Below are positions 21,372-43,756 of a stretch of 64,000 nucleotides of DNA, in pieces. This DNA is from Sphingomonas sp. dw_22 (lineage in GTDB: Bacteria > Pseudomonadota > Alphaproteobacteria > Sphingomonadales > Sphingomonadaceae), in assembly GCF_018449795.1 (NCBI RefSeq), contig NZ_JAAVVE010000004.1, positions 62,001 to 126,000 of the forward strand, in the 5' to 3' direction. The notes under the pieces were generated by a model, which worked only from the letters and a program-made list of their open reading frames with translations, searched no databases and was not told the DNA's origin. The translations under genes and the position numbers were made by a program. Position 1 is the stretch's first letter; the number at the start of each line of letters is the position of its first letter.

Positions 21372-22117
21372 ATGACAGAAATTCTCGCTGGAAAGATCGC
21401 GCTCGTGACAGGCGGCGGACGCGGCATCGGCGCCGCCATTGCGCTCGAGCTGCTTCTCAGGGCGCAACCGTGGCGCTCAGCTATTCGGCAAGCGAGGCGA
21501 AGGCGAAGGAGATCGTCGCCAAAATCGAGGCGGCTGGCGGCTCGGCGATCGCATTGAAAGCCGACCAGTCGGTCGAGAGCGAAGTCATCGGACTCATCGC
21601 GGCGGTTGTCGAACGGTTCGGCAAGCTCGACATCCTGGTCAACAATGCCGGTGTGTTCGAGGCCGGCACCATTCCCGATACGCTCGATACGAGCCGCTTC
21701 GAGCGACAGGTAGCGATCAACTACCAAGCGGTGGTCGTGGCTATTCGCGAAGCCTCGCGTGTGATGGGCGAGGGTGGTCGGATCATCTCGCTTTCGACGG
21801 GACTCGCAGCGCGGGCGAGCTGGCCCGGCATCGCCGACTACAGCGCCACCAAGCGCGCCATCGAGGGCTACACCAAGGGCGCAGCCCGCGACCTGGGTGC
21901 CAAGGGGATCACCGTCAACGTCATCGGCACCGGTTCGATCGATACGGACATGAATCCTTCCGACGGGCCGCTGGGTGAGTATCAAAAGGCCGCAACGGCG
22001 CTGGGCCGGTTTGGCCGACCTGAGGAGATCGCGGCGGTGGTTGCCTTCATCGCGAGCCCTGCCGCGAGCTATGTCACCGGCGCGATCATCCCCGTAGACG
22101 GTGGCTACACGGCTTGA
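21372..22117 (+). pseudogene. FabG-like SDR, frameshifted near the N-terminus
   Basis: From ATG 21372 the frame reads MTEILAGKIALVTGGGRGIG then AAIALEL, a canonical SDR start, but then turns to nonsense and stops at 21557. The rest of the SDR is in another frame beginning SQGATVALSYSASEAKA and contains NNAG, YSATKRAIEG and the end GAIIPVDGGYTA at 22117. Inserting one base in GAGCTGCTTCTCAG near 21452 gives LELAASQGATV and restores a 248-residue enzyme. As read, no full product is made. Confidence 0.82.
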
Positions 22118-22978
22118 TCCCTGTCTTAGCGTCCTCGGCCATCGTGCCGGGGACGTGGGCGAAGCGCGGTTCGGCGTGGGACGATATTTCCCTCTCGGCG
22201 GAATGTTTGCCGAGCCTCCCGGTCTCGCCACCGTCTGGCGGCAGCTATCGAGTGGTTCCGCTCATTCCGTGAACGTCCGACTTGTTGGCGGAAGCGGAAA
22301 TGTCCTTCGCCGACCGTGAAACATCTGCTTTTCGATCGGCATTCCCAAAAGCCGACAGGCCGCTGATGGCCCAAAATGGCCATGCGATTGATGCCAGATC
22401 AAGAGCAGAAAAGGCTGATAAACCGTTTCGCCGCGTTCCTGAGCTATGCGCGCTGATGGAAGGGCGAGATTGGCTGGCGTCCGTCTCATGGAAGCCTGAG
22501 CTATACCACTGCACCCCACAGGGAATGTGGGAACTCTTGTGGTATCAGATTTCCTGATCAACCCATTTCACGCGCAAAATCAACGCGATAAATCGCTTGA
22601 CTGGTGACCCCTACGGTCACCCGGTTTCCGTGGCAAGGTATTGATCTTGCTACAGTATTCGCCGTAAGCGAAGCACTAATACCATCACAAGTACCATCGG
22701 TCCAGCGAGATAATATGGGTCTGTCTGAAGTCGATGAGGACCGGCCCCATGCCTCTCATTGGCAGTCGCCATTCCTCCCCCGGGAGAAATGCGACCGACC
22801 ACGAGAACAACCGACGAAGCTCGTAAGCCGGACTTCGCGCGCTGCCGGTGCGAATGGACTTCGCCAATAACAGCAGGTCCATCACCTTCTCATTTCTGCA
22901 ACTCCGGCGGGAAACCCAACTCGAAGTCGGAAAGATGCGCGGCGGTGCCGAACGGCAGGCAGTTGACAATGGCCCGTC
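22118..22978. other. Gene-poor gap holding the left element boundary
   Basis: No convincing gene in 861 bases. Short open frames occur (for example 22282-22557, 91 codons) but lack an RBS, recognisable domains and consistent codon use. The 15-base tRNA-Glu repeat at 22602-22616 divides the gap into chromosomal flank (left) and the end of the mobile element (right). Confidence 0.6.
22602..22616 (+). repeat. Left attachment-site repeat (copy of tRNA-Glu 3' end)
   Basis: TGGTGACCCCTACGG is identical, in the same orientation, to 43681-43695, the 3' end of tRNA-Glu including CCA, discriminator and acceptor strand. It lies where the distal att site of an element integrated at that tRNA should be. 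Confidence 0.75.
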
Positions 22979-24148
22979 TCAATTCGGCTTCCATCCAAAG
23001 GCCGCCATCATGATGTTGAAGAGCTGCGTGTTGGAGAAGAAGCCACGGACGCTATCGGCGCCCGGCCCCATCGCGACGGCAACGACTTCTTCTCCGGCAT
23101 GAGCCCCCTTCGCATCAGCCGCAACTACCTTGGGCTGGTCAGGATTGTCGGCGGCGATTTGATCTGCAAGCGGTTGTCCGCGTTTTCCGGAACGCAACTT
23201 CAGATCATAGGAATGATCGGCGACGAAGAGGATCAGCGTATCCTCGCCTACGACCTCGCTGACCCGTCGGATCAGATTGTCCATCTCGACGGCATGGGTC
23301 AGGCCCTTTTTCAGATCGTTGGTATGCATGTCCCACTCGACCATCAGGAAATAGCCTTTCGGGTTGCGGCTCAGGCTCGAAATGGTGGCTTCCACGGCAG
23401 GGATGGGGGCATAGTCCTCGTCGCGGAGAATGGCCGCTCTTCTCGTCTTGGGCGTCAGCACCGACGGATCGTCACCGAAGAGATAGCCCGATCCCGCGAA
23501 TGTCTCGGCGGCGGTCCTGCCGGTCCTGGTGAAAGCCGCCTCGGCTGCGTCGCGGTCCTTGCCGATCAATATGTCCACACCGTCGCCATAGCGTGGCGCC
23601 AGCAATTGCCGGAATATCTCGTCCTTGTCGGAACGCTTCGCTACATGCGCATAGCAGGCCGCAGGAGTCGCATCCCAGATCGGCATGTTGGTGATCACGC
23701 CAGTGGAGAGTCCGCGCTCCTCTGCATATTCGAGGACCGTCTTCACCGGCGTGACCGTCCCATTGGTGGATGGGATGACGGAGCTCATGCCGTTATTGGT
23801 CTTATGGCCGGTGACGATGGCGGTCATGCCCGCAGCAGAATCCGTCACCCAGCTATCGAGCGCCGATGTGTCCGATAGCGCGACATAGGGCATGGACTGG
23901 ATGAACAGCGATTGGGGACGATCATGGGCATAAATGCTCGCGGCGCTCAGCGTCGGCAGTCCGCCGGCATCGCCAAGGAACAATATGACGTTTCGCGCTT
24001 GCCGTCCTTGAATCTTCGCGGGGTGCTCCCTGGCTTCGACGGGCGCGTTGGTGCAAACGAGGAGGGCGCTCATCACAAGAGCGAGAGCCGACATGACTCC
24101 CGCATATCCGCGCCAGAAGAGATTGGAACGACGAACAAGTGTGGACAT
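22979..24148 (-). CDS. Secreted alkaline phosphatase (PhoA superfamily)
   Basis: A 389-residue metal-dependent phosphatase. An N-terminal signal segment (about residues 12-39, ending VEA) precedes the catalytic domain. Metal ligand D60 (LFLGDAGG), nucleophile S104 (TDSAAGMTA), and the later WDMHTND, VADHS and HAGEEV ligand segments are all present. It releases phosphate from organic esters in the periplasm or outside. ATG 24148 has AAGGA upstream; TTG 24157 overlapping the previous stop is possible. It is the last gene of the FecI-FecR-TonB-phosphatase cluster. Confidence 0.9.
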   Translation of the reverse strand: MSTLVRRSNLFWRGYAGVMSALALVMSALLVCTNAPVEAREHPAKIQGRQARNVILFLGDAGGLPTLSAASIYAHDRPQSLFIQSMPYVALSDTSALDSWVTDSAAGMTAIVTGHKTNNGMSSVIPSTNGTVTPVKTVLEYAEERGLSTGVITNMPIWDATPAACYAHVAKRSDKDEIFRQLLAPRYGDGVDILIGKDRDAAEAAFTRTGRTAAETFAGSGYLFGDDPSVLTPKTRRAAILRDEDYAPIPAVEATISSLSRNPKGYFLMVEWDMHTNDLKKGLTHAVEMDNLIRRVSEVVGEDTLILFVADHSYDLKLRSGKRGQPLADQIAADNPDQPKVVAADAKGAHAGEEVVAVAMGPGADSVRGFFSNTQLFNIMMAAFGWKPN

Positions 24149-24153
24149 GCGAC

Positions 24154-25293
24154 TCAATCCTTATGCGGCCTTCTCTTGTTAGTCATATCAAGAGAAATAT
24201 CGAAATTATGTTGACCGCTGTCTTTGACAGATTTGGTGGTTGTGACAATTTTACTATCCACCGTATCATAAGTGATCACTCGTATTGCATTCCCGGATGG
24301 GGAAAAGCGATATATCCGAATGGCGCCGCCGTGCTCCGCCGTCGGCTGATAGTCGCTGGGTGAATGCACGATATGGCCGTGGTCATCCCGGCTATAATCG
24401 CTCAGTAGCGCATGAACGATATTGCCATGATCGCCGGTGAGTTTTAAATATTGCGCATTCGGCGTGCTTTGATCGCCATTCAGGATCAGGCGGATATTCG
24501 GGTGCCGCCTGAATGACTTGTCCCATAGCTGCTGAGGCGTGTTGCCCGCTTCCCCATGCACTTTCTTCCATTGCATGACGCCCTGCGGCAACAGGCTTCC
24601 GTTCTCGCCCTTTTTCGGCTCCCGAATCGGGCCGAGGAACATGTGCGTCACGACGATCCCGAAGCGGCTCTTGTAGCGATCGAGGATCGTATCGACCCAT
24701 CGCAATACATCGTTGGGCGCATTGCATTCAACATGAAGGATCACGAAATTCAGCCCACCGGCGGAAAATAGCTGATAGCTGTTGGCGTTGTTGCTGGAAA
24801 ATCCGGGATGCCCCCGCTCGCCTTTGAAATAGCCCCCATACCAGGGGAATTTCCGGAAGCGCGAAGCCGGGAAATATTTCTGGAACAGCGAGGAATCCCC
24901 CGGGTTGGTCATGTCGTGATTGCCGACCACCAGGCCATAGGGAACGACGCCGTGGAAACGGTCCAGATAGCGGCGCGCCAGTTCCCACTGAAGCTCGTTA
25001 TTGGAGTCAACGATGTCGCCGCCATGGGTGACGAAGGCTACTTTCTGGCTCTTGAGGTTGGCGACGACCCATCGCGTTTCCGCATCGAAAACCGGGTTCT
25101 CCGTGGGAAGATCGACATCGCGCTGGAGGGCCGTTCCCCGGCCCAGGTAGCCCTGCGTGTCGGACAGCATGACAATGCTGAAGCTGCCCTCGGGGGCGGG
25201 GTCGAGCGAAGTCGTTTGCGCCGTGGTCACGGCTGGATGCAGCGACAAGGCGATGGCCGCGCAAGCTGTGGCCATCATTGCGAAAAATCTCAT
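24154..25293 (-). CDS. Secreted calcineurin-like metallophosphoesterase
   Basis: A 379-residue protein with a signal peptide (MRFFAMMATACAAIALSLHP, cleavage after about AQ at 26) and the metallophosphoesterase signature: D45 in LSDTQG, D93 in GGDIVD, GNHD at 124-127, and a downstream VVTHMF. Family members are phosphodiesterases or monoesterases using two metal ions. Its stop overlaps the start region of the alkaline phosphatase, and it follows the TonB receptor by 68 bases. A plausible role is stripping phosphate from a substrate the receptor binds; this is inference. Confidence 0.9.
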   Translation of the reverse strand: MRFFAMMATACAAIALSLHPAVTTAQTTSLDPAPEGSFSIVMLSDTQGYLGRGTALQRDVDLPTENPVFDAETRWVVANLKSQKVAFVTHGGDIVDSNNELQWELARRYLDRFHGVVPYGLVVGNHDMTNPGDSSLFQKYFPASRFRKFPWYGGYFKGERGHPGFSSNNANSYQLFSAGGLNFVILHVECNAPNDVLRWVDTILDRYKSRFGIVVTHMFLGPIREPKKGENGSLLPQGVMQWKKVHGEAGNTPQQLWDKSFRRHPNIRLILNGDQSTPNAQYLKLTGDHGNIVHALLSDYSRDDHGHIVHSPSDYQPTAEHGGAIRIYRFSPSGNAIRVITYDTVDSKIVTTTKSVKDSGQHNFDISLDMTNKRRPHKD

Positions 25294-25361
25294 CCGTCAG
25301 GCTCCTTGCTTCGATCGGCCATGAAGATGGCCGATCGGGATGCCGATGTGCTTCGACAAAT

Positions 25362-28300
25362 TCAGAAACGGACGCGCAGGCCCATGGTGAAGTAACGATA
25401 TTGCGCGGCGGCGGGGGTACCGCGATTGACCGGATAGGAATATCCGACCCCGCTGGTGCTGATGAAAAGCGGCGGATTCGTATTCAGGAGATTCTGCACA
25501 TTCACATAGAGATCGGTTTCGACACCAGCCACATGGAAGGTTTTGCTGATGCTGAGATCGATGGCATTGAATGATTTGATATTGGGTTCGGCAAATACCT
25601 GGGAAGAATTGGTGCGGTGGCTGTATCGGCTGTACCAGGTGTCCTGAATATTGATCGTCCAGTCATCGACATCATAATTCACGAACAGCGTTGCCCGCCC
25701 CTTCGGGAGCGCCGGAAAACTGGGGATCGCCCCGGCCGTGGCGAACGTATCGTTGCGCGGCTGATAGGTCCCCAGCAGGCGAAGGCTCAATTTCCCCGGC
25801 GCGGAGGCGGCGATGGCCGACAAGGGAAAGTTGTAACCCAGTTCGACATTAACACCTTCGGTGCTCTGCTGGGCGACATTCACATTCTGCGATGTGATGG
25901 CCGTGGGAGCGTTCGCGGGCGAGGTATAGCCCGGCTGCCCCGGCGCGATGGGCCGGGTCGCCAGCTTGCAGAAGGGTGAATCATAATTCGGAGCCGAGGC
26001 TATGCACAATTGCTGGATGGCAAGCGTGGCATAGGCCGCGACGGCGATGCCATCGGTTATCTTGATGTTATAATAGTCCACGGCAAGGGTCAGGCGCGGA
26101 ATGAAGCTCGGGGTCAGCACGATGCCCGCGGTCCAGGCATCCGATTTTTCCGGCTTAAGGTCGGGATTGCTGTTCGTGGTCTGCTTGACGGAGACGGCAG
26201 TGTTGGTCAGCAAATCGGTGAAGGTGGTATTGTTAACCTGGGCCCTCGCAAAGAGGTCGTTCAGATTGGGCGCGCGAATATCGCGCGACCGCGTCCCGCG
26301 AAAGCTCAGCTCATCGCTGAGCCGCCACATGACGCCGGCTTTCCAAGTCTGGACGCTGCCCGATGTGTTGTAATGGGTGAAGCGGCCTGCCGCATCCACA
26401 CGCAGGCTCTTGATCAGCGGAAGATCCTTCAGGATCGGGACGTTGATCTCGCCACCGATTTCCTGGACCGCCTGATGCTGTATCGGAATGGCGTTGACGG
26501 TCGTCTGGGTATATAGGCCGCCCGCCGAACAGAGACGAAGCCCAGTGCAATCCACAACGTCATCCGGCGAGAAGAGGCTGTCGATGCGGAAGCTGCTCCA
26601 GCGGGCCTCGCCAGACAGCGCGGCGCTCACCGGGCCGGCGGGCAGCTTGAAAATATCGCCCGAGATCGACCCGCTGACATCATGCTTGTCGTTGAGCATG
26701 TCGTACCAGGTTTTCTGGCTGACATAGTCGAATTGTTCCTGGGTGACGGCACCAGGCCCGAAAGGGTTGATCGGCAGGCATCCCGGATAGAGCGAGGCGG
26801 AGGCAGTGAGGGAAACCTGGCAAACCACCTTGCCGTTCGCATCGAGCACGGCGTCGCGTGCCGCCGCCAGCTTCTGGTTGTTCACACCGATCGCCGAGAC
26901 CCTTTGCTTCACCTGGGCATAGGAGTAAAACAGGTCGTAATGGAGACGGTCCCATAGCGATCCTTCCAGCCCCGCCTCGCCGGACAAAAACCGGTTTGTC
27001 GACGTTTGGCTGTAGGTTCTGCCGTTCGCGGACTTGTTGTCGATTTGTTGCGTCACCCTCGCGACCGAGAATGTCCCCGCAGTGCTCGCCAGCAGAGCCT
27101 GCGCGGCCGGCGTGAGGAAAGCATTGGTGCTGTAGAAGCTGCCTCCGAGGGAGTTTCCTCCATAGGTATGATAGCTTTTGCTAGTCGCCAGGAAACCTTG
27201 CACATAGAAGGTGGCACTGTCGCTCAGATCATAGCTGAAGCGGCCAAAGGCGTTGAATCTTTCAAGCGTTGACTGAAAGCCGACCTGCGTCGCCACGTAG
27301 CCGCCATCGCCGCCGTCCGAGAGATTGTTGGTGCCGGTCGCCGTCCCCTTGTCGAACGGGCCGATAACTCCGTTAGTGACGAATTGCATGCCATTGGCGG
27401 CGCAACCCGTGCAGGTGATGAGGCCACCAGCGCTGTTGTTGGTGGCCCGGGCGTACTGGATCGCGACATAGGGGCTTGCCGCCGTACCCAGCCCCTTATA
27501 GGCCCATTGCTGGCCGCCTTCGATATAGGGGCGATCACCTTGCAGGATATAGGGTCGGTGATAATAGCTGACCGCTCCTTCGATGTGGCCGCGTCCGTCG
27601 AATATTTCCCTACCGCCAGCCACGGAGGCCCGCCAGGATTCGCCATCGCCAAAATTCGAGATGCCGGCGTTGGCGTCGAACTTCACGCCTTTGAACTTCT
27701 TATCGAGAATGTAATTGACAACGCCGGTGATCGCATCGGAGCCATAGACGGCCGAAGAACCGCCCGTAGTGATTTCCACTTTTTTTATTATCGCCGTCGG
27801 TATGACATCGACGTTCACCGAACCATCCGCATTGGCGGGGGGGACACGGTGGCCGTCCAACAAGACCAGCGTACGATTGGCACCGAGATTCAAGAGGCTA
27901 ATGTTGGTACCGTTCGAGTTCCTCACAGGACCGCCCAAACTAAACCCGTTCTGGCCGCCGAGAATCGAAGGCATCTTGAGCAGTGCGTCGGTGATGGTCG
28001 AAGGCGTGGTTTTATCCAGTTCCTCAGCCGAAAGCGCCACCACCGGCGTAGGCGAATTGAAAGTATCGGTGATGACGCGCGATCCGGTGACAGTGATATC
28101 GCTTTCCGGGGCGGGCGCCGCTGATTCACGCCTGGCGGCGACGGTTGCAACCTGCCGCTCGGGAAAGCGACTCGCCGATTCTCGATTTGTCTGATTCTGG
28201 CGGTCGGAGGAACCACCCGGCACGACCAGAAAAGCGTCCCCGCGCTTCTGCCAGGTCAGCCCCGATCCGCGCAGAAGCTGGCTCAGAGCCGCCTCGACCA

Positions 28301-28526
28301 ACGAAGCTGCCGAGATCGCAGGCGCCCGCTTTCCACGCAGCAGGGCCTGATCGTAGAGTATCTGTGCGCCGGACTGCCGCGACAGCGCGTTCAGTGAATC
28401 TGTGAGGCTTGCCGAAGGAAGCGAGATGTTGCTTTGCGCCAGCGCCGGAGATGCGACGCTAGTAGCGCCAATGATGAGAGTGAAGGCGGCGACGCCTGCA
28501 CGAAGCGAACCTTGGAACCTGGACAC
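25362..28526 (-). CDS. TonB-dependent receptor with STN signalling domain
   Basis: A 1054-residue outer-membrane receptor: signal peptide to ALAQ (31), STN (secretin/TonB N-terminal) domain at about 35-105 for contact with FecR, plug at about 145-265 (SDITVTGSRV as TonB-box region, VEITTGGSSAVYGSDAITGV), and a long beta-barrel ending in the aromatic YRYFTMGLRVRF. The plug resembles large receptors of sphingomonads for complex organic ligands rather than typical siderophores. Upstream FecR and sigma genes make it a cell-surface signalling receptor. Confidence 0.93.
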   Translation of the reverse strand: MSRFQGSLRAGVAAFTLIIGATSVASPALAQSNISLPSASLTDSLNALSRQSGAQILYDQALLRGKRAPAISAASLVEAALSQLLRGSGLTWQKRGDAFLVVPGGSSDRQNQTNRESASRFPERQVATVAARRESAAPAPESDITVTGSRVITDTFNSPTPVVALSAEELDKTTPSTITDALLKMPSILGGQNGFSLGGPVRNSNGTNISLLNLGANRTLVLLDGHRVPPANADGSVNVDVIPTAIIKKVEITTGGSSAVYGSDAITGVVNYILDKKFKGVKFDANAGISNFGDGESWRASVAGGREIFDGRGHIEGAVSYYHRPYILQGDRPYIEGGQQWAYKGLGTAASPYVAIQYARATNNSAGGLITCTGCAANGMQFVTNGVIGPFDKGTATGTNNLSDGGDGGYVATQVGFQSTLERFNAFGRFSYDLSDSATFYVQGFLATSKSYHTYGGNSLGGSFYSTNAFLTPAAQALLASTAGTFSVARVTQQIDNKSANGRTYSQTSTNRFLSGEAGLEGSLWDRLHYDLFYSYAQVKQRVSAIGVNNQKLAAARDAVLDANGKVVCQVSLTASASLYPGCLPINPFGPGAVTQEQFDYVSQKTWYDMLNDKHDVSGSISGDIFKLPAGPVSAALSGEARWSSFRIDSLFSPDDVVDCTGLRLCSAGGLYTQTTVNAIPIQHQAVQEIGGEINVPILKDLPLIKSLRVDAAGRFTHYNTSGSVQTWKAGVMWRLSDELSFRGTRSRDIRAPNLNDLFARAQVNNTTFTDLLTNTAVSVKQTTNSNPDLKPEKSDAWTAGIVLTPSFIPRLTLAVDYYNIKITDGIAVAAYATLAIQQLCIASAPNYDSPFCKLATRPIAPGQPGYTSPANAPTAITSQNVNVAQQSTEGVNVELGYNFPLSAIAASAPGKLSLRLLGTYQPRNDTFATAGAIPSFPALPKGRATLFVNYDVDDWTINIQDTWYSRYSHRTNSSQVFAEPNIKSFNAIDLSISKTFHVAGVETDLYVNVQNLLNTNPPLFISTSGVGYSYPVNRGTPAAAQYRYFTMGLRVRF

Positions 28527-28645
28527 GATGTAATCCCCCTGAGCGTGAGTTGATTGGGTTCAGGGGAAAGACGCGGCGATTGCCGAAATTTGCCAAAGTT
28601 TTTTGTTGCATTTTAGTGACGAGATCGAGCGACGCGGAAGGCCGT

Positions 28646-29593
28646 TCAATTCTTGGAGAGGATTACGGCATCATCGGTCTGATGGACCCGGAAAGTATGG
28701 GTGATGGCCAGGTTCTGGAGTTGGCCGACCGGATCGGTCAGGCGTATCCGTCCGCCTACGAGCTTGTTCGCCAAGCTTTCATCCTCAATCCTGATCGGCA
28801 ATGGTGAGAGGCTTTGCAGATCGGCGACCACTTGCCGTAGAGGCACACCCCTGTATTCCACCCACTCGCTGCGCCAGCGGGCGACGTTCTTCAGGCTGAC
28901 ATCCTCGATCTGGCTCAGGCCCGCTTGGTCGAGCGTGGCCGCCTGATTGGCGGCGAGCCGGATCGGCTTGCTGTACCAGCCATTGCGACTGAATTGGACG
29001 ACACCCGTAGCAACCGTGACTCGGATACTTTCTGGTCTGCTCAAGACCTCGAAGCTGGTCCCGACGTCCACGATGCGAGCGTTACCGGTATCGACCCTGA
29101 ACGGGCGACCCGTATCATGCGCGACATCAGCGAAGATCGCGCCGTGGGTCAGCTTTACTTCGCGGTAGTGCCGTGTGTAGCGGACCTTGACCTCCGCGCC
29201 GCCCGCCAAGGTTAGCTGTGTTCCGTCTGCCAACGTGACGTTCTGGACCTTCCCATCCGCCACCGCATATTCTTCGGGTTGGGCAAGGCGCAACTCGACC
29301 CAAGGCATGGCTTTGTAGCTGCCTGCCGCAACCAACATGACGGCCACGCCACCCACCAGCCAAGTGGGTCTGGATGGACCTCGACGCCCATAGGCGCGCA
29401 AGGCCGCGTCCATGTCCCGCCCCATGATGTGCCGCCACATTGAATCGAACACCGATCGGCGGCGAGGATCGCCGGCGAGCCATTCGTTAAAAGCTGTCTC
29501 ATCGAAAGGGTCGTCGCTCGTGCGGCGATCAATCCACTGCGCGGCCTCGAACTCGATGGAGTTAGTCTCGGACAGGGTCGCCTCGTTGCTCAA
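28646..29593 (-). CDS. FecR-family anti-sigma/signal transducer
   Basis: A 315-residue FecR protein. The cytoplasmic N-terminal part (FEAAQWIDRRTSDDPFDETA then FNEWLAGDPRR) should bind the ECF sigma factor. A single membrane helix lies at about 77-97 (WLVGGVAVMLVAAGSYKAM) and the periplasmic FecR domain follows (GAIFADVAHDTGRPF, DVGTSFEV). The C-terminal STN-like part contacts the receptor. Its start overlaps the sigma gene by 32 bases. Confidence 0.92.
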   Translation of the reverse strand: MSNEATLSETNSIEFEAAQWIDRRTSDDPFDETAFNEWLAGDPRRRSVFDSMWRHIMGRDMDAALRAYGRRGPSRPTWLVGGVAVMLVAAGSYKAMPWVELRLAQPEEYAVADGKVQNVTLADGTQLTLAGGAEVKVRYTRHYREVKLTHGAIFADVAHDTGRPFRVDTGNARIVDVGTSFEVLSRPESIRVTVATGVVQFSRNGWYSKPIRLAANQAATLDQAGLSQIEDVSLKNVARWRSEWVEYRGVPLRQVVADLQSLSPLPIRIEDESLANKLVGGRIRLTDPVGQLQNLAITHTFRVHQTDDAVILSKN

Positions 29594-30077
29594 TTCTCTG
29601 AATCGCCAGATGCAGGTCCACCATGGCTCTTGCCATATGATGGCTGACGGCGCTGGGGGAAAGACTCAAATCGCTGCCCACTTCGCCCGGAGATTGCCCA
29701 TGCACGCGGCGTCGGATGAAAACCTCGCGGCGCAAGGGAGGCATTTTCTTGAGGATGTCCGCGACCAGCGCGATCAACTGGCGGCGCTCTATCTGCTGAT
29801 CCACGGTCGGCAGCGGACAGGCCATCGTGTCCGACAACTCGACCACCGGAACCCGTTGGACGCGGCGGAAATGGTCCCGCACTAGATTGAGCGAGATACG
29901 ACGCAATAGCGCGCGGGCATTGGTCACGGTGTTGTCTGGTTTCGCCTCAAAGACCAACAATCGGAGATAGGCCTCCTGAACGATGTCCTCGCTCAATGCC
30001 GAGTCGCGCACCTGCCGCCCTACATATTGCAGTAAATCAGTGCGTTGTGCGGTCAGTTGAGAAGCGCGGGAAGCCAT
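29562..30077 (-). CDS. ECF RNA polymerase sigma factor, FecI-like
   Basis: A 171-residue ECF sigma factor. Region 2 has SEDIVQEAYLRLL and RISLNLVRDHFRR; region 4 has PPLRREVFIRRRVHGQSPGE and SPSAVSHHMARAM. It is the first gene of the minus-strand cluster sigma-FecR-TonB receptor-phosphoesterase-phosphatase. By analogy with FecI it should drive the receptor promoter in the 119-base gap at 28527-28645 when ligand is bound. Confidence 0.92.
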   Translation of the reverse strand: MASRASQLTAQRTDLLQYVGRQVRDSALSEDIVQEAYLRLLVFEAKPDNTVTNARALLRRISLNLVRDHFRRVQRVPVVELSDTMACPLPTVDQQIERRQLIALVADILKKMPPLRREVFIRRRVHGQSPGEVGSDLSLSPSAVSHHMARAMVDLHLAIQRIEQRGDPVRD

Positions 30078-30156
30078 CGCGCCGCCATAAAAGTACGATA
30101 TGACAGTGCGGTTTCACCGCCGTCGATGCTGTAACCACTAAGGGCGAAGGCGATGG

Positions 30157-30870
30157 TTAGCGGCCGTTGGTATTCGGAACCTCAATGCCGATGGTGCATC
30201 GCACTAGCTGCTTGGTCTTGGCGGCCTGCTGCTCGCAAGCGGCGATTGCGTCGCGGTTGGCCTGCCGCATATCGGCGGCGTCAACGACGGCCTGCCAGCC
30301 TTCCGGGTTCCCGGCGCGCATCAACCGGATTCCCGCGTCCCATAGCGTCGGCTCGCGGACGACACGCGCGGCGAGGTGTTCGGGCCAGTGCCAGCCTGTC
30401 GGCGCAATGCGCGCACCAAAACCGGGGATCGCAGTCATGACCAGGCATCCGGCGACGAAGCCGCCGCCTGCCGCCCACCATAGGTTGCGATTCTGCTGGT
30501 CGATGGTGGTTGCTGTGCCGATGGTTGCCCACAAGGTGCGCGCGTTTTCGGTAAGTTCGCGCGCTGCTTTGGTAAGCATGGCCTGATCCTCGCGCCGCGC
30601 CATCACCGCCGCCGCCTCGAACCGCGCCTGAAAATCCTCTGGCGTCATCTGCAAGGCGGGTGCGCTCTCAATGGCGATCAACGATTTGGCGATCTTGGCA
30701 AGGGTGTTGCTGTAGTCGGGAACCTCGATTTCCGCCTTCTCGGTCGCCAGATGTTCGACGGCGCGGCGCAACAGCGCCAATTCGCCCCTTAGCTCGGTAA
30801 AGGCCCGCGTCGCCGGGTCCGGTGCGGGCGGCTCGTAGGGCAATGCGTTGGGCCAGCGTTTTTCGTCCAT
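30157..30870 (-). CDS. DUF6118-like relaxase-associated protein
   Basis: A 237-residue protein with a Pro-rich N-terminus, a probable coiled coil (ELRGELALLRRAVEHLATEK) and one membrane helix at about 130-149 (LWWAAGGGFVAGCLVMTAIP). It matches what I recall of DUF6118 proteins that sit directly after Ti-type TraA relaxases in sphingomonad elements. Its function is unknown; a membrane-linked mobilization accessory is plausible. It follows traA by nine bases. Confidence 0.75.
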   Translation of the reverse strand: MDEKRWPNALPYEPPAPDPATRAFTELRGELALLRRAVEHLATEKAEIEVPDYSNTLAKIAKSLIAIESAPALQMTPEDFQARFEAAAVMARREDQAMLTKAARELTENARTLWATIGTATTIDQQNRNLWWAAGGGFVAGCLVMTAIPGFGARIAPTGWHWPEHLAARVVREPTLWDAGIRLMRAGNPEGWQAVVDAADMRQANRDAIAACEQQAAKTKQLVRCTIGIEVPNTNGR

Positions 30871-30879
30871 GTCTTTCTC

Positions 30880-33800
30880 CTATCGGCTCATTCCAAGGCC
30901 GCCGCCATGATCGAACGGCACGGAGTCCGCCAAATCACGGGCAAGGCTGCGGCCCATATCCACGTCGATGCCCAATTCCTGACGCCGCCCGGACAGCAGC
31001 GATTCCACCTGCGCGTCGCGTTCAAGGCTTTTCGCCATCCCGGCCATTTCCTGACCGACGCGCTTCGCGTCCCGAAAATCGCCATCGCGCCGTAGCTCGT
31101 CCTGCGCCTGCCGGAGCTGCTGCCAGCCCTCCACGAAGCGGTCGGCGCGGCTGTAGGGATCGGCCCGCAATTCCGCCTCTTGGCTCATCGCCCGTAGCGC
31201 GGCCTGGCCTCGCCCCTCCGCGGCCTCGCGGATCAGTTCCGGTTCGCCCCGGAACGCGCTGTTCAAGTCGGTTGAGGCATTGGGCCGGATCGCGTCCAGT
31301 CCTTCGCGCGCGCGGTCGAACGCCTCGCGCTGGTGAGGCATGGCGTCGATGCCCTGCGCGCGGGTCTGCTGGATGGCATCCAAGGCGCGCGCATAACGCT
31401 CGACCGCGCCGCGCACGCCTCCGGCGCGCATCGGCTGCGGGTCGTGGTCGCGCTGCTGCTGGCGGGCCGGATCGCGCTCGGCCTTGGGCATCGCGCCGCT
31501 CAAGTCCAGCCCGTCGAAGATGCCGCGCGGACGTTCGGACGCTGCCGATGCCGCGTGATCCTGACCGGCCAGCGAGAGGCGCAAGCCCTCGAAGATCCCG
31601 CGCGCCTTCTCGGCCACCGGACGGATGATCTCGGCAATACGCTCGCCAAGGCCGATGCCACGCTGCTCGGCAAACTGCTGCGCCGGGTCACGTGCGGCCT
31701 GATAGTCGCTCGCCATGTCTTTGGTGCGCTCTCGCGAAAGCGTCTGAACGAGTTTGGACTGATCCCGGAAATCATCACGGCCGTAGTGAAGCGCCATGCC
31801 GTCGCGGTGGCGCGTCATCCCGACATAGGAGCCATGCCGATCCATCCCCGGCGTGGCGAGCATATGCGAGCGATCCACGCTCATGCCCTGCGCCTTGTGG
31901 ATCGTGGCGGCGTAGCCATGATCGAGGTCGCGATAGTCCTTGAGGTCGAACGACACGGAGCGCCCGTCATCGGTGCGCACGGTCATGCTCTGCTGGTTCA
32001 CCTGCTCGACGGTGCCTAGCGTGCCGTTCTTCACCGCAAGGTCGCGCTCGTTGCGAAGGAACATGATGCGATCGCCGCTGGCGAAGGCGCGCGCGCCGCG
32101 CTCGGTTTTCACGCGAACATCGTCGCCAAGCTCGCCCGCTGCCCGCATCCGGTCGCGCGCCGCCTCGTTCAGTTCGCGGACCCCGTCATTGGTATGCGTG
32201 AGGATGATCCGGGTTTGATCGGGGGCGGCGATGCGCTCGCGGTCCCAACGCTCGACAAGCTCGCTGCGCGCCTGCTCGCGCGTTTCGGCCGCGTGAACCA
32301 TGCCCCGCTCGGCATAGGCCCGGATTGCTTCGCCAGTGCGGCCGGTCGCCAGATGCCGGGTGGCGTCCTGTTGCCAGCTTTCATGCTGGCGGCGAACCTC
32401 CGTAATCTCGACGCCGCCATGCCGCTCGTGGATGGCGCGGAAGGCCGCGCCCGCCTCGATCGCCTGCAACTGCTGCGGGTCGCCCACCAGCACGACCTTG
32501 GCCCCCGCGTCGGCGGCATGGGACAGAACGCACTCCATCTGGCGCGTGCCGACCATGCCCGCTTCGTCGATCACCAGCACGTCGCGCGAAGTCAGAAGGT
32601 CGCGGCCCTGCGACCATCCATGTTCCATGCTGGCGATGGTGCGTGAGGCGATGCCGGAGCCGTTCTCCAACTCCTCCGCCGCGATCCCCGACAACGCCGC
32701 GCCGCGCACCGCATAGCCGCTGCGCTCCCACGCCTCCCGCGCCACGCCAAGCATGGCGCTCTTGCCGGTCCCGGCGTAACCGACGACGACGCTCAAATCC
32801 CGCTCGCCGGTCACATGCTCGAACGCCGCGCGTTGCTCCCCGGTCAACTCCAACCCGCGCCCCTCCGCGCTGGTCAAAGCCGCTTCGCGCGCCTGCTCGT
32901 CGGTGTGGTGCCGTTCGCGCTCGGCCATCAATTCCGATGCGCGCTGCAACCGCTGCTCGGTTTCGATCATGTAGCGCGACGTGAACCTGTTGTCGCCGCG
33001 CGCGTCCTTGCCCAAGGCGATCATGTCGGGCGATGTGCGAACGGCGCTCATCGCCCGATCATATTGCTCCTTGCCGTCGCTGTGCCGGTGGATGAACATC
33101 GCAAGGTCGCGATTGGTGAACGTCGCCTGCTGGTGGGTGATCGCGTCGAGCGCGATGCGCGGCTCCGCGATGATCTTTTCGCCGTTGCGATTTGCAATCT
33201 CGCGGTGCTGCTCGATGCGCTCGGACTCAAGCCCGCGCTCGCCCATGCGCGAAGCTGCGGGGCCGATCTTGTCTTGCGGCTCAAGGTCGATGCCTTGCGC
33301 CTCAAGACTGCGATGGTCGATCCGTGCATCTATGTCGAGTTCGACAAGGCGCGCGTTGACGTGATCGGCCCACCGCTCGCGCCACTGTTCGACAAGTTCG
33401 GTGCGGTTCCAGTCACGTTCCTTCTGCCCGAACTCATCGGGACCGACTTCGCGCATGGTGAGCATAACATGGGCATGGGGTTTGGGCTGGCCGTCCGCGC
33501 CCATATCCCAATGCACATTCAAATCCGCGATCATGCCGCGTTCGACAAACTCCGCTTGCACAAAGTCGCGGGCCAGTTCGATGCCTTGTGCCTTGTCCAT
33601 CTCGCGCGGAATGGAAAACTCCACCTCGCGGGCAAGCTGCGCGTCCTTGCGCTTCTCGCCTGCCTCGACCTCGTTCCAGAGGGTTTCCCGATCCGACAGG
33701 CGTTCGGGCGCGCCTTCGGGCAGCATGATCTCGCTATGCTCGACGCCCGACTTGGCGCGGAAATCATGGTCGCGGTCCAGCCGCTCGTCGTGCAGCCGCT

Positions 33801-33885
33801 CGCCAGCCCGATAGGCAGCGGCTGCGACGGCGCTGCGGCCGCTGGAACGGCCAATGACCTGAACGCTGAAATGGTAGATCGCCAT
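30880..33885 (-). CDS. traA: Ti-type conjugative relaxase/helicase TraA (MOBQ)
   Basis: A 1001-residue relaxase. The MobA/MobL domain spans about 1-230: Y25 (AAYRAG) is the probable nicking Tyr and H125, H137, H139 (NVHWDMGADGQPKPHAHV) are the metal ligands. A RecD/TraI-like helicase follows with Walker A GYAGTGKS at 369-376 and Walker B VLVIDEAGMVG. The protein nicks oriT and unwinds the strand for transfer. It is divergent from TraC/TraD-like genes with a candidate oriT in the gap, the order seen in Ti-plasmid Tra regions. Confidence 0.93.
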   Translation of the reverse strand: MAIYHFSVQVIGRSSGRSAVAAAAYRAGERLHDERLDRDHDFRAKSGVEHSEIMLPEGAPERLSDRETLWNEVEAGEKRKDAQLAREVEFSIPREMDKAQGIELARDFVQAEFVERGMIADLNVHWDMGADGQPKPHAHVMLTMREVGPDEFGQKERDWNRTELVEQWRERWADHVNARLVELDIDARIDHRSLEAQGIDLEPQDKIGPAASRMGERGLESERIEQHREIANRNGEKIIAEPRIALDAITHQQATFTNRDLAMFIHRHSDGKEQYDRAMSAVRTSPDMIALGKDARGDNRFTSRYMIETEQRLQRASELMAERERHHTDEQAREAALTSAEGRGLELTGEQRAAFEHVTGERDLSVVVGYAGTGKSAMLGVAREAWERSGYAVRGAALSGIAAEELENGSGIASRTIASMEHGWSQGRDLLTSRDVLVIDEAGMVGTRQMECVLSHAADAGAKVVLVGDPQQLQAIEAGAAFRAIHERHGGVEITEVRRQHESWQQDATRHLATGRTGEAIRAYAERGMVHAAETREQARSELVERWDRERIAAPDQTRIILTHTNDGVRELNEAARDRMRAAGELGDDVRVKTERGARAFASGDRIMFLRNERDLAVKNGTLGTVEQVNQQSMTVRTDDGRSVSFDLKDYRDLDHGYAATIHKAQGMSVDRSHMLATPGMDRHGSYVGMTRHRDGMALHYGRDDFRDQSKLVQTLSRERTKDMASDYQAARDPAQQFAEQRGIGLGERIAEIIRPVAEKARGIFEGLRLSLAGQDHAASAASERPRGIFDGLDLSGAMPKAERDPARQQQRDHDPQPMRAGGVRGAVERYARALDAIQQTRAQGIDAMPHQREAFDRAREGLDAIRPNASTDLNSAFRGEPELIREAAEGRGQAALRAMSQEAELRADPYSRADRFVEGWQQLRQAQDELRRDGDFRDAKRVGQEMAGMAKSLERDAQVESLLSGRRQELGIDVDMGRSLARDLADSVPFDHGGGLGMSR

Positions 33886-33914
33886 AGCGATATACCATCT
33901 ACTGCCTTAAGCGC

Positions 33915-33943
33915 ACGTCGGCACGACGTATAAGCGCGCCCTT
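33915..33943. other. Candidate MOBQ-type oriT
   Basis: A perfect inverted repeat ACGTCG-GCA-CGACGT (33915-33929) is followed at once by ATAAGCGCGCCCTT, close to the nic region of RSF1010 and Ti plasmids (consensus around TAA-x-x-GCGCCCT). It lies in the divergent traA/traC gap. Nicking should occur within or just beside the GCGCCCT core. Confidence 0.65.
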
Positions 33944-34058
33944 CTCGAATAAAATCCGAGCAGGGACTAGATGGTTCCAGAGCGTCCCGGCGACTCTACT
34001 GCATTACGCAAAACGATAACCTAGTATCACTCCATCAAACAAGGATGGAGACTTTGCG

Positions 34059-34756: not shown

Positions 34757-36226
34757 CTAAATGCCCGCTCCCGTTAAATTGGCCACAGGATGCGGGGCGC
34801 GCTGGCGCCGGGTAAGCAGGAGCAACCATGTCGCCATCAGAATAAGGCTAACTTCCGTTATCACAGTTGGCGGCGAGGAAGCAGTTGCAGCCCCGACAAC
34901 GTGGCGTCCGACGAGCAGCAGAACATAGCAACCGGCCGTAACGACACGTGCCAGCCGCGACGAAAGCACAAATCGGCGCCCAGACAAGCTAATTATGGCG
35001 ACGGCGGCTGCCGTAATCCCCATTAACAGCCAGGGGGTCGTGCGGAAAAATAAATTGCCGGTCAGCAGGATCAGCGGCAGCACCACGTAGAGCACATTAT
35101 TGGCGTGATAGAGCCGCTCCGAAATGCTTTCCTCACTCACCACCCTGTTACCGTCGCGCAACCACAGCAGCTTCATGCCACTGTCGATGACCCAAAGGCA
35201 GAGCAGACTGAGCACGATATAGACGGTCAGCACGCCGACACCTCCGAACCGCGCATAGTGGATCGGCCGCAGCGCGCTTTCTATCACACCCCACGCACCT
35301 CCCGCCGGCTGGCGCTGAACGACCGTAAGACGGCCATCGGCGAGGTCGCAACGCGCCTCGACCGAGCCACCGCCCTCGCCAGACCATTGCAGGCTGTTCA
35401 GCCGCAGGAACCGGATGTCCAGTCGATCACCGTTTCGCTCAACGCCGGCAAAGCGGGTTCGGGGCAGGAGGTCCGCCGCACGTGTAACGCATGCATCTAG
35501 CCGTCCCACCGCCGCAGGCGAGGGCGCTTCCGGAATCCCACGCGGCGGGACGGCGGGGCGGCTCTCGCCGGCCAACGCCATCGCGATCGGCACCGTGGCG
35601 ATCTTCATGCCCAATATCGCGCCGGTCAACGCCATTACGAGAAGGAATGGCGTCAGCCACAGGCCGATGCGCTTATGACTCTCACTCAGGTTGAGGATGC
35701 GGGACCGGCGACGCCATTTCCAAGCTTCTTTGAACTGCTTGCCGTGAATGAAAAGGCCGGCGCCAACCAGGATGGTGATGAAGGTGCCCGTCAGTCCCAT
35801 CGCCAGCCGTCCCCAGGGCTTGGGCAGCAGCAAGTCGGTGTGGATGCGGCGAAACAAGCCGTCCAGGGCGAAATTGTTCCATTCGTCCCGCAGCCCGGTC
35901 GTCGGATTGACCATCAGCACGACGGGCTTTCCGCCCGCCGCACCTGGTCCAGCATAGACGTAAAAGGGCCGCATAGGCGTCGGCGCGACCATGTTCCAGC
36001 GCGGCCCCCCATCATTTCGGGCATGAACGAACCGAAGCACCTCACTCGGACTCGCCGTCGGCTGATCATATGCTGCAGCCACGTCCGGTCTAAGCCACGG
36101 CCGGGCAAGGTCCGCATAGAGCGAGAGGATTCCGGTCCAGATCGACCAGGAGATCAGCAGCAGGAAGACAAGGCTCACCGCGCCATGAATGGCGAGCAGC
36201 CGCTTCGAGATCGCCTTGCGGTTCAC
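34757..36226 (-). CDS. PepSY-associated membrane protein (iron uptake)
   Basis: A 489-residue inner-membrane protein of the PepSY_TM family (PiuB/FhuF-neighbour type). Helices near the N-terminus (LLAIHGAVSLVFLLLISWSI), around GLTGTFITILVGAGLFI and LWLTPFLLVMALTGAILG, and a block of about five at the C-terminus. Such proteins occur with TonB siderophore receptors and are thought to reduce or release iron from siderophore in the periplasm. GTG 36226 overlaps the previous stop (GTGA); a start at 36280 would lie inside the upstream gene. Confidence 0.88.
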   Translation of the reverse strand: MNRKAISKRLLAIHGAVSLVFLLLISWSIWTGILSLYADLARPWLRPDVAAAYDQPTASPSEVLRFVHARNDGGPRWNMVAPTPMRPFYVYAGPGAAGGKPVVLMVNPTTGLRDEWNNFALDGLFRRIHTDLLLPKPWGRLAMGLTGTFITILVGAGLFIHGKQFKEAWKWRRRSRILNLSESHKRIGLWLTPFLLVMALTGAILGMKIATVPIAMALAGESRPAVPPRGIPEAPSPAAVGRLDACVTRAADLLPRTRFAGVERNGDRLDIRFLRLNSLQWSGEGGGSVEARCDLADGRLTVVQRQPAGGAWGVIESALRPIHYARFGGVGVLTVYIVLSLLCLWVIDSGMKLLWLRDGNRVVSEESISERLYHANNVLYVVLPLILLTGNLFFRTTPWLLMGITAAAVAIISLSGRRFVLSSRLARVVTAGCYVLLLVGRHVVGAATASSPPTVITEVSLILMATWLLLLTRRQRAPHPVANLTGAGI

Positions 36227-36426
36227 GACTCGGCCTTTCGCAAGGTGAACCATAGGACGGCAAATAGCAGCAGCGTCCACAGCAGGCAGCTACCGATCGC
36301 CACGGCAAACAGGGCGCTCCCGCCCTTGAGGCCCGAGAGACGCGCCAGGCCGACCAGCGCAGCAACGCTCGCGGGAAGGCCTATAACTAGTGTCGCAAGC
36401 GTTATCATGAGGGTTCGGAGCATCAT
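36223..36426 (-). CDS. Small two-helix membrane protein of iron-uptake operon
   Basis: A 67-residue hydrophobic protein (MMLRTLMITLATLVIGLPAS; SALFAVAIGSCLLWTLLLFA) with two membrane helices. It overlaps both neighbours by 4 bases (ATGA and GTGA), so all four genes from the TonB receptor to the PepSY protein are tightly coupled. Similar tiny proteins (DUF3649/DUF3325-like) accompany siderophore receptor/PepSY operons; a firm family cannot be given. Confidence 0.75.
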   Translation of the reverse strand: MMLRTLMITLATLVIGLPASVAALVGLARLSGLKGGSALFAVAIGSCLLWTLLLFAVLWFTLRKAES

Positions 36427-36596
36427 TGGCGGCGCTCGCTCATCGCCCAACTCAGCGCAGCTCCAGACAGGCCGAGGCTGAACAGCGCAAGCACAATCCC
36501 CGGTCCCGCCCCAAGCAGGGCCACACCACCGATAAACGTGCCGCACTCAAGCAACCCCAGCGTCAGCCAGGGACGCCTGAACCCTCCAAACCGCAC
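36423..36596 (-). CDS. 57-residue membrane protein, GTG start
   Basis: A short frame from GTG 36596 to TGA 36423-36425 encodes VRFGGFRRPWLTLGLLECGT and continues with a strongly hydrophobic stretch (IGGVALLGAGPGIVLALFSL). Two membrane helices are predicted by eye. It starts five bases after the receptor stop and overlaps the next gene by ATGA. No ATG in frame, so simple gene-finders may miss it. It probably forms a small complex with the 67-residue neighbour and the PepSY protein. Confidence 0.65.
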   Translation of the reverse strand: MRFGGFRRPWLTLGLLECGTFIGGVALLGAGPGIVLALFSLGLSGAALSWAMSERRQ

Positions 36597-36598
36597 GC

Positions 36599-38986: not shown

Positions 38987-39060
38987 ATACGCCCCGCACT
39001 TGTGTTGCTCTCACAAGGAAGGACGAGCGAGTTTCCCAAACAGCTCAAGATGGATGGAAA

Positions 39061-42283: not shown

Positions 42284-43516
42284 CTATTGCCCGGCCTTCG
42301 CCTTACGGAACGTGCCCTTGATGACCTTCGCGCCGTCGCGGAGGAAATCCAGATGATCGGACCAATGCTGCATCATGCGGACGCGCTCGTCCCAATATTC
42401 GCCGCGTGTGTAGGCACGGCGCACCGCGTTGTTGTCGCAATGAGCAAGCTGGCGCTCGATCGCGTCGGGATGCCATAGGCCCATTTCGTTCAAGAGCGTG
42501 GCCGCCATCGCCCGGAAGCCGTGGCCGGTCATCTCGTCCTGGGCGAAGCCCAGGCGCCGCAGCGCCGCGTTGATGGTGTTTTCCGACATGGGGCGATCGA
42601 CCGAACGCAGCGAGGGGAACAGGAAGCTGCTGTAGTCCTCGTCATGCTCGATGGTTTCGAGGATCGCCAGCGCCTGCCGGGACAGGGGGATGCTGTGGAC
42701 GCGCCGCATCTTGGTCTTGTGCTTCGGGATGACCCAAAGCGCCTTGTCAAAATCGAAGTCGGCCCATTCGGCATAGCGCAACTCGCCCGGCCGGACGAAC
42801 ACATGCGGTAGGAGGCGAAGCGCCGCCTTGGTGTTGGGATGCCCCTCGAACGCCTCAAGGGCGCGCAACAGGCCGCCTGCCTCACTGGCGCTGGTGATCG
42901 CCGCCCGATGGATGGGCTGGGGTGCGATCAGCGCGCCGCGCAGATCGGCGGCAACGTCTCGCTCGGCGCGGGCCGTGGCGATGGCGTAGCGGAATATCTG
43001 GCTGGCAGTGCTGCGCAGCCGCTTCGCGGTTTCGTAGCGGCCCTTGCCCTCCATCTTGCGGAGCATGACAAGAAGCTCCTGTGCGGAAATGGAGGCGATA
43101 GGACGCTTGCCGATGGACTCGTTGATGAAGTCCAGCAGCCAGCGCAATTTCTTCATGGTGACGGCGGAGCGGCCTTCGCGCTCGACCTTCACAAGCCATT
43201 CGTCGGCAACCGCCTTGAAGCTGTTGGATGCGGCGACCGCCGCCGCAACCTTTTCCAGCTTGATCCGCTCAGCCGGATCGTCGCCGCGCGCCAGAACCTT
43301 TCGCGCCGCGTCCCGTTGCTCGCGGGCTTCGGCAAGGCCGGTGTCGGGATAGACGCCGAAGGCCAGCGTCTTTTGTTTGCCCAAGTGGCGATAGTTCATC
43401 CGCCAGTAGCGGCCGCCATTGGGAGTGACATACAGGAACAGCCCGTCGCCATCGGTGAGTTTGTAGGGCTTTGCACGACCCTTGGCATTTTTGATCGAAA
43501 CAGCGGTAAGCGCCAT
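42284..43516 (-). CDS. P4-type tyrosine integrase
   Basis: A 410-residue site-specific recombinase. N-terminal arm-type DNA-binding domain (DUF4102; KPYKLTDGDGLFLYVTPNGG), then a core-binding domain, and the catalytic domain with R242 (VRPGELRYAEW), H332-x-x-R335 (HGFR), H359 and nucleophile Y369 (NNAVRRAYTRGEYW). It transcribes away from tRNA-Glu and lies 165 bases from its 3' end, the usual P4/island arrangement. It should catalyse insertion at, and with AlpA excision from, the tRNA gene. Confidence 0.95.
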   Translation of the reverse strand: MALTAVSIKNAKGRAKPYKLTDGDGLFLYVTPNGGRYWRMNYRHLGKQKTLAFGVYPDTGLAEAREQRDAARKVLARGDDPAERIKLEKVAAAVAASNSFKAVADEWLVKVEREGRSAVTMKKLRWLLDFINESIGKRPIASISAQELLVMLRKMEGKGRYETAKRLRSTASQIFRYAIATARAERDVAADLRGALIAPQPIHRAAITSASEAGGLLRALEAFEGHPNTKAALRLLPHVFVRPGELRYAEWADFDFDKALWVIPKHKTKMRRVHSIPLSRQALAILETIEHDEDYSSFLFPSLRSVDRPMSENTINAALRRLGFAQDEMTGHGFRAMAATLLNEMGLWHPDAIERQLAHCDNNAVRRAYTRGEYWDERVRMMQHWSDHLDFLRDGAKVIKGTFRKAKAGQ

Positions 43517-43680: not shown

Positions 43681-43695
43681 TGGTGACCCCTACGG
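43681..43695 (+). repeat. Right attachment-site repeat within tRNA-Glu 3' end
   Basis: Second copy of TGGTGACCCCTACGG. It forms the CCA end, discriminator, acceptor strand and the first T-stem bases of tRNA-Glu. Identical to 22602-22616. Confidence 0.75.
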
Positions 43696-43756
43696 GAATC
43701 GAACCCGTGTTTCAGCCGTGAAAGGGCCGCGTCCTAGACCGCTAGACGAAGGGGCC
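43681..43756 (-). tRNA. tRNA-Glu (anticodon TTC)
   Basis: On the minus strand a full cloverleaf: acceptor GGCCCCT with AGGGGTC, discriminator A and encoded CCA; D-arm TCTAGCGGTCTAGGA; anticodon arm with loop CTTTCAC (anticodon TTC); T-arm CGGGTTCGATTCCCG. Length 76. Its 3' end serves as the integration site of the element to the left, and the tRNA sequence stays intact. Confidence 0.95.

Follow-up and report, generated by a model that had tools for sequence, protein, structure and literature searches.

A locus of five genes in Sphingomonas sp. dw_22 probably serves the ligand-induced scavenging of organophosphorus compounds. It lies in a stretch of 64,000 nucleotides (assembly GCF_018449795.1, contig NZ_JAAVVE010000004.1, positions 62,001 to 126,000), hereafter the window, whose numbering is used throughout, and encodes, in this order, an extracytoplasmic function (ECF) sigma factor, a FecR-type anti-sigma factor, a TonB-dependent receptor with an STN signalling domain, a metallophosphoesterase and a PhoA-family phosphatase. 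Organic phosphorus is a main phosphorus reserve of soil and water. Organophosphorus scavenging is the best reading because the link between receptor and phosphatase recurs in other genomes with distantly related receptors; in its favour, too, the same genome carries a second locus, L013, with the order ECF sigma factor, FecR, STN receptor, a further protein and PhoA. For ligand, induction, co-transcription and catalytic activity we infer the following course: the STN-type receptor would bind an extracellular organic ligand that contains phosphorus, and its STN domain would relay the signal to FecR, releasing the ECF sigma factor; the freed sigma factor would raise transcription of the receptor, metallophosphoesterase and PhoA genes; and the ligand would be imported via the receptor, or degraded by the exported enzymes, with the phosphate released by PhoA then taken up.

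The five-gene locus

29562..30077, minus strand: ECF sigma factor, 171 amino acids (aa); Pfam Sigma70_r2 and r4_2, above cut-off
28646..29593, minus strand: FecR-type anti-sigma factor, 315 aa; FecR domain, E 1.6e-18, above cut-off
25362..28526, minus strand: TonB-dependent receptor with STN signalling domain, 1054 aa; Pfam STN, Plug and TonB barrel, above cut-off
24154..25293, minus strand: exported calcineurin-like metallophosphoesterase, 379 aa; Metallophos, E 4.3e-8, above cut-off
22979..24157, minus strand: exported PhoA-family phosphatase of the VEWDxHT subfamily, 392 aa; Alk_phosphatase, E 7.8e-43, above cut-off, with subfamily alignment and tree
30050..30120, minus strand: region upstream of the sigma gene; a single Pho half-site without mismatch (CTGTCAT); full-box score at most 10/14, which is not significant

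A preliminary description of this DNA, made from its sequence, had placed five co-directional genes at 22979-30077, among them one for a 1054-residue STN-type receptor; the coordinates and Pfam domains, including STN, Plug and TonB barrel in the receptor, confirm both points. All five reading frames, from sigma to PhoA, are open and lie on the minus strand with operon-like spacing: the sigma and FecR genes overlap by 32 nt, 68 nt separate the receptor and metallophosphoesterase genes, the metallophosphoesterase and PhoA genes overlap by 4 nt, and the sole larger gap, of 119 nt, separates FecR from the receptor, at a place that in FecI-type systems commonly holds a second promoter. Judged by eye, the FecR protein has a single transmembrane stretch, and the N-termini of both enzymes carry Sec-type signal sequences, which predict export. 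The cluster of ECF sigma factor, FecR and STN-type TonB receptor has the gene content of FecI/FecR cell-surface signalling.

Linkage of PhoA to TonB receptors in other genomes

A scan of named genomes with a PhoA alignment gave 171 loci, of which the best 80 were analysed. Thirty-seven were taken as alphaproteobacterial by the titles of their records, including L051 from a Caulobacter metagenome-assembled genome (MAG); L048, from a Hyphomicrobiales MAG, is counted among the remaining 43. A locus was counted as linked if a co-directional TonB receptor gene lay at most four genes upstream of PhoA in an unbroken same-strand run, which held for 25 of the 37 alphaproteobacterial PhoA loci as against 2 of 74 control genes from the same loci (Fisher 1e-13), the control genes, unlike PhoA, being admitted only where the locus extended at least four genes upstream of them. 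The difference was also seen at the nearest gene (9/37 vs 3/113), within two genes (20/37 vs 2/95) and within three (24/37 vs 2/85); the near-identical locus pairs L033/L035 and L045/L081 are counted separately in these figures. On the comparison with control genes, chance adjacency of PhoA and receptor is rejected. Genes beyond annotated records were called with a codon-usage script that can miss genes, as it did for PhoA in L020.

The linked loci differ in their companions, which were labelled by similarity to a small panel, with Pfam run on examples. Nine of the 25 have an ECF sigma factor and FecR (L023, L024, L029, L030, L031, L036, L041, L049 and L063), and eight have a histidine kinase, with a response regulator called in six of these (L028, L032, L037, L047, L053 and L061) and uncalled in L033 and L035. 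A beta-propeller phytase accompanies PhoA in six linked loci that have neither ECF/FecR nor kinase (L026, L034, L052 from Sphingomonas abaci, L054, L067 and L090), and two loci, L042 and L044, have neither regulator type nor phytase. Kinase and phytase occur together in L032, and a metallophosphoesterase sits between regulator and kinase in L028. Overall, the companion enzymes of PhoA loci are beta-propeller phytase (assigned by Pfam in some loci and by similarity in the rest), PhoD, metallophosphoesterase and GDPD; all four act on organophosphorus compounds, which supports the organophosphorus reading. The ECF-type loci L041 and L049 have a 331-332-aa protein and a 517-aa protein (PhoD in L041) beside PhoA. 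The smaller protein (L041 8886-9881, L049 5071-6069) shows S1/P1-nuclease-like motifs by eye, and its L041 copy has no Pfam match.

Between the STN receptor and PhoA of three loci lies a 408-415-aa protein, designated X13 (L013 7087-8313, L023 8687-9934, L024 8566-9810), for which the two copies scanned, those of L013 and L023, gave no Pfam match. A model built from L023 with L024 and L013 is of modest quality (mean pLDDT 60.7), and most of the 50 Foldseek matches listed for it are propellers (kelch domains, sialidase-like and others), with TM to the query of at most 0.44. X13 is thus, with modest confidence, a predicted beta-propeller; given the modest model and low TM we draw no function from it, though it may represent a new protein that hydrolyses or binds organophosphates.

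Beyond the Alphaproteobacteria, four of the 43 loci have a co-directional receptor or barrel upstream of PhoA. The Opitutaceae locus L055 combines receptor, phytase, metallophosphoesterase, GDPD, PhoA, regulator and kinase, and the Acidobacteriota loci L083, L086 and L092 pair an outer-membrane barrel with PhoA, two of them with a phytase too. The barrel of L079 is on the strand opposite to PhoA, and no barrel families were found in eight other large neighbours scanned in the non-alphaproteobacterial loci.

Probable repeated assembly and the type of switch

In a quick tree of 57 receptors, which has several long branches, PhoA-linked receptors occupy a minimum of four distinct positions, or six when weakly joined groups are split: the window receptor; the X13 type; the types with phytase or a two-component system; and L041/L049 with L020 and the L030 group. 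The near-duplicate L035 was left out in favour of L033, the row labelled L029_1766_LINK is mislabelled, and the PhoA-adjacent L029 receptor, split over two frames, was left out for its length. That gene (L029 6985-9923) is either broken or affected by a sequencing error. The window receptor clusters with those of L110-L112 (support 99), and the window PhoA is sister to three X13-type PhoAs (support 100/96), so that a PhoA closest to that of loci with another receptor and another enzyme is combined here with a receptor of the L110-L112 group. Across 38 alphaproteobacterial rows the PhoA tree calls for at least 16 changes of partner set, some at weak forks, or 12 if the states are reduced to ECF, other and none. 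Given the scattered linked receptors and these changes, the receptor-PhoA link seems to have been assembled repeatedly.

Judged from domain searches, the type of switch appears to match the type of receptor, with ECF/FecR accompanying STN receptors. STN was detected in all 11 ECF/FecR-linked receptors tested (L029 lay outside the test): searches with whole proteins at E<=1e-3 found it in 8/11, and searches with N-terminal pieces at a laxer limit, applied to ECF-linked receptors only, in 9/9, six of them below the Pfam cut-off. The STN domains of the window and L013 receptors are above that cut-off. None of the 16 other linked receptors gave STN at E<=1e-3, and 14 of the 16 have a carboxypeptidase-regulatory domain instead.

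Phosphate control and promoters

In 41 regions, roughly 220 nt ahead of the first gene were searched for Pho boxes and scored against shuffled sequence. At a shuffle fraction of <=0.02, six of the 41 show a Pho-box-like site, two of them in loci of the X13 type, three in loci of the phytase type and one at a PhoA without a linked receptor, which makes phosphate control likely for some relatives. Scores were at chance in seven of eight regions of the two-component type and in L013 of the own genome (0.495), and when at most three mismatches were allowed, the entire window gave 3 Pho-box matches vs 3.06 expected. An ECF promoter pattern is present in 5 of 12 FecR-receptor gaps and is nearly alike in four of them (L029, L030, L036 and L063). 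Promoter and terminator scans (6 vs 3.2 expected and 8 vs 7.0, respectively) were not used.

FecI/FecR/STN receptor sets usually serve iron, and the locus might accordingly be read as an iron uptake set in which the phosphatases assist by liberating iron bound to chelators that are phosphorylated, phytate-like ligands for instance. Besides this usual role, a further sigma-FecR-STN receptor set, accompanied by a PepSY_TM gene, is found on the mobile element described below; but of the 25 alphaproteobacterial loci with a linked receptor only nine have ECF/FecR genes, Pho-box-like sites occur in several relatives, and we regard an iron function as improbable.

Relatives of the window proteins and catalytic features

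Among the genomes searched, the exact five-gene set was found in the own genome only. The preliminary description had suggested following the five-gene order across sphingomonads; at E<=1e-20 the metallophosphoesterase turned up in 1 of 249 family genomes, the own one. At E<=1e-15 it was found in 4 of 398 phylum genomes, the three matches outside the own genome being open frames of 793-2072 aa with 25-30% identity. No window-like metallophosphoesterase gene was detected in the 80 PhoA loci and none was found in viral contigs; solved structures gave no match at E<=0.1, and a plasmid search matched 35 of 72,556 records, each below 60% identity. The receptor was found at E<=1e-150 in 3 of 298 family genomes (the own genome, G182 with two copies, and G225), in a search that scored the two best candidates per genome and may have missed some. 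PhoA was found at E<=1e-30 in 9 of 298 family genomes, with at most six candidates scored per genome and misses likewise possible. A receptor set is adjacent in 6 of 11 PhoA places of the family sample (the window, L013, L015, L017, L020 and L021). L013 and the window share their plan at 79% identity for PhoA, 31% for the receptor and 25% for FecR.

The window PhoA has an Alk_phosphatase domain with the nucleophilic Ser and metal ligands expected of a PhoA alkaline phosphatase: D63, S107, T164, E274, D314, H315 and H353 are invariant across 11 aligned subfamily sequences, and we take them to be the catalytic Ser and metal ligands by their correspondence to E. coli PhoA. The subfamily has VEWDxHT in place of a longer metal-binding loop: compared with the three solved enzymes shown, five residues are missing between E274 and the His that follows it. 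Scan matches of this subfamily come from Alphaproteobacteria, Acidobacteriota and Verrucomicrobiota. Calcineurin-like metallophosphoesterases have five metal-binding motifs, and the window enzyme retains four of them (DTQ, GDxxD, GNHD and TH). A single-sequence structure model of it (mean pLDDT 37.7) was not used.

Weighing the readings

Several observations weigh against organophosphorus scavenging. By the link rule, 12 of the 37 alphaproteobacterial PhoA loci have no linked receptor, and neither do 39 of the 43 other loci have a co-directional receptor or barrel upstream, a figure that includes short contigs and partial receptor detection; in the family sample, five of 11 PhoA places (L014, L016, L018, L019 and L022) have no adjacent receptor set. 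The preliminary description had named phosphatases independent of the receptor in most genomes as evidence that would count against it, and such independence is seen only in part, in these 12 and 39 loci. In the window, the module has no significant Pho box (best 10/14, shuffle fraction 0.07), and the ECF promoter pattern of the five FecR-receptor gaps was not found. No phosphatase genes adjoin the closest relatives of the window receptor (L110-L112), and motif V of the metallophosphoesterase reads GD in place of GH, with His in 7/7 aligned relatives, a change by which the enzyme may be altered or impaired.

The receptor relatives bear on the nature of the ligand. The nearest found share 50% (L107/L110), 41% and 40% identity with the window receptor, and beside the L110, L111 and L112 receptors lie genes for a pyrroloquinoline quinone (PQQ) dehydrogenase and a glucose/sorbosone dehydrogenase, a beta-helix protein, or a carboxylesterase. 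Given such neighbours, for sugar oxidation, a beta-helix protein or an esterase, the ligand could plausibly be a phosphorylated sugar or polysaccharide, though this is unproved. The same neighbours, together with the want of a convincing Pho box, would suit an account in which the receptor imports a carbon compound such as a sugar, the phosphatases remove its phosphate for carbon use and the signal is the carbon ligand, not phosphate need; we consider this unlikely, as those relatives are themselves without phosphatases and PhoA is elsewhere linked to quite different receptors, along with phytase or PhoD. That the genes came together by chance on a mobile element, PhoA and metallophosphoesterase being carried along with no functional tie to the receptor, would agree with an exact set confined to the own genome and with the altered motif V, but the tight spacing, the overlap of the last two genes, the open frames and the recurrence of the receptor-PhoA link in other genomes make this very hard to credit. 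The direction proposed in the preliminary description, organophosphorus scavenging, is for the most part borne out by the linkage of 25/37 loci vs 2/74 controls.

The mobile element

22602..22616, no strand: putative attachment-site repeat at the left element end, a 15-bp exact match to the tRNA-Glu 3' end
30880..33885, minus strand: TraA-type relaxase; PRK13889 and TraA_Ti above cut-offs
42284..43516, minus strand: phage-type integrase, 410 aa; Phage_integrase, Phage_int_M and Arm-DNA-bind_3
43681..43756, minus strand: tRNA-Glu at the right end of the element, with the repeat copy at 43681-43695

The earlier suggestion that the locus is on a mobile element is supported by the relaxase, integrase, tRNA-Glu and 15-bp repeat, which together delimit an element of about 21.1 kb. 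The repeat pair (22602-22616 and 43681-43695) has a BLAST E of 0.006 within the window, the integrase adjoins tRNA-Glu, and a DUF6118 gene and the relaxase gene adjoin the five-gene module, which, by the position of the repeats, is cargo at the left end of the element, the PhoA gene ending 362 nt from the left repeat. The right flank, from tRNA-Glu onward, has a strong match (E <1e-170) in 37 of 41 genomes of the genus, the own included, and for the left flank partial matches alone, the best of them over 146 nt, were found in genus genomes beyond the own one. Among the 20 records listed of the 40 obtained in a plasmid search with DNA 22000-34000, the relaxase part alone matched. That such a set is carried by an integrative element points to phosphorus niches being transmissible.

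The second sigma-FecR-STN receptor set with its PepSY_TM gene (34757-40299) is iron-uptake-like, and a small pair at 40807-41492, Gp49-like (DUF891) and helix-turn-helix, resembles a toxin-antitoxin pair. Left of the element, positions 1-22117 form a block that by eye is rich in short-chain-dehydrogenase-like genes; its last 1.3 kb is matched only partly in 40 other genus genomes, so that it may be another acquired block.

A proposed swappable plan around one PhoA subfamily

The wider result worth following is a swappable receptor-switch-phosphatase plan around one PhoA subfamily. We tentatively propose, at somewhat less than even chances, a broad non-Bacteroidetes class of organophosphorus loci, resembling polysaccharide utilization loci, in which parts are swapped and of which the window would be a carbohydrate-tuned version. 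The switch in this class would be ECF/FecR with STN receptors, or a two-component system with receptors bearing a carboxypeptidase-regulatory domain; the hydrolase of the first step would be a phytase, PhoD with a nuclease-like protein, a metallophosphoesterase or the Pfam-less beta-propeller; and each set of parts would serve a different phosphorus compound, that of the window being borne by a mobile element, directed at a phosphorylated carbohydrate and equipped with an uncharacterised metallophosphoesterase. The repeated occurrence of similar receptor-plus-phosphatase loci in related bacteria suggests a swappable kit by which phosphorus in organic matter is sensed and harvested. To our knowledge, the substrates of most sphingomonad TonB receptors are unknown; if the proposal is true, such a recurring design would make the ligand of a receptor predictable from the neighbouring hydrolase, and FecI/FecR signalling would serve phosphorus, not iron alone, in Alphaproteobacteria.

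Comparison with known systems

The FecA-FecR-FecI ferric citrate system shares with the window the chain from STN receptor through FecR to ECF sigma factor and differs in cargo and receptor, the window proteins scoring far below the NCBIfam cut-offs (FecR 68 of 385, FecA 39 of 1100). The VreAIR system of P. aeruginosa (PUMA3), a FecI-type system linked to phosphate starvation, also uses FecI/FecR-type signalling; its VreA, an STN-bearing, TolA-like protein, lacks a barrel and occurs mostly in soluble form, and its regulon includes type II secretion genes and requires a pho box (PMC2729926, PMC4971064). In contrast, the window receptor has plug and barrel, and there is no convincing pho box in the window. 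In Citromicrobium bathyomarinum, another alphaproteobacterial receptor gene, for a TonB receptor, adjoins that of an organophosphate hydrolase; this is a phytase, where the window has a metallophosphoesterase and PhoA, and ECF/FecR genes go unmentioned in the part of the paper considered (PMC3400609). The Caulobacter PhoB regulon includes TonB receptors, phytase and phosphatases under phosphate control (PMC11208175); in the part considered it is described as a regulon, whereas the window set is a single locus. Within the literature searches made, no published description of this proteobacterial locus type was found.

The closest parallel comes from the Flavobacterium systems PUS I/II, in which an ECF sigma factor (PUS I) or FecR-like regulator (PUS II) is combined with a TonB-dependent SusC/D pair and periplasmic phosphodiesterases or PhoA1; they are induced on phosphate depletion and proposed to bind, import and degrade organophosphorus compounds (PMC8115612). 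Because PUS combines ECF/FecR, TonB transporter and phosphatases, and VreAIR ties a FecI-type system to phosphate starvation, the statement of the preliminary description that no named system has this composition does not hold. The window likewise clusters a TonB-dependent transporter with phosphatase genes and an ECF/FecR switch; the Bacteroidetes systems differ in their SusC/SusD pair, none of the five window genes being SusD-like, and the SusD family gave no match in these five or in 10 further genes scanned, a part of the element's genes. With no SusD partner among its five genes, and with its own induction only predicted, the window is not filed as a PUS member; by analogy, the locus is best read as a counterpart, without SusD, of Flavobacterium PUS.

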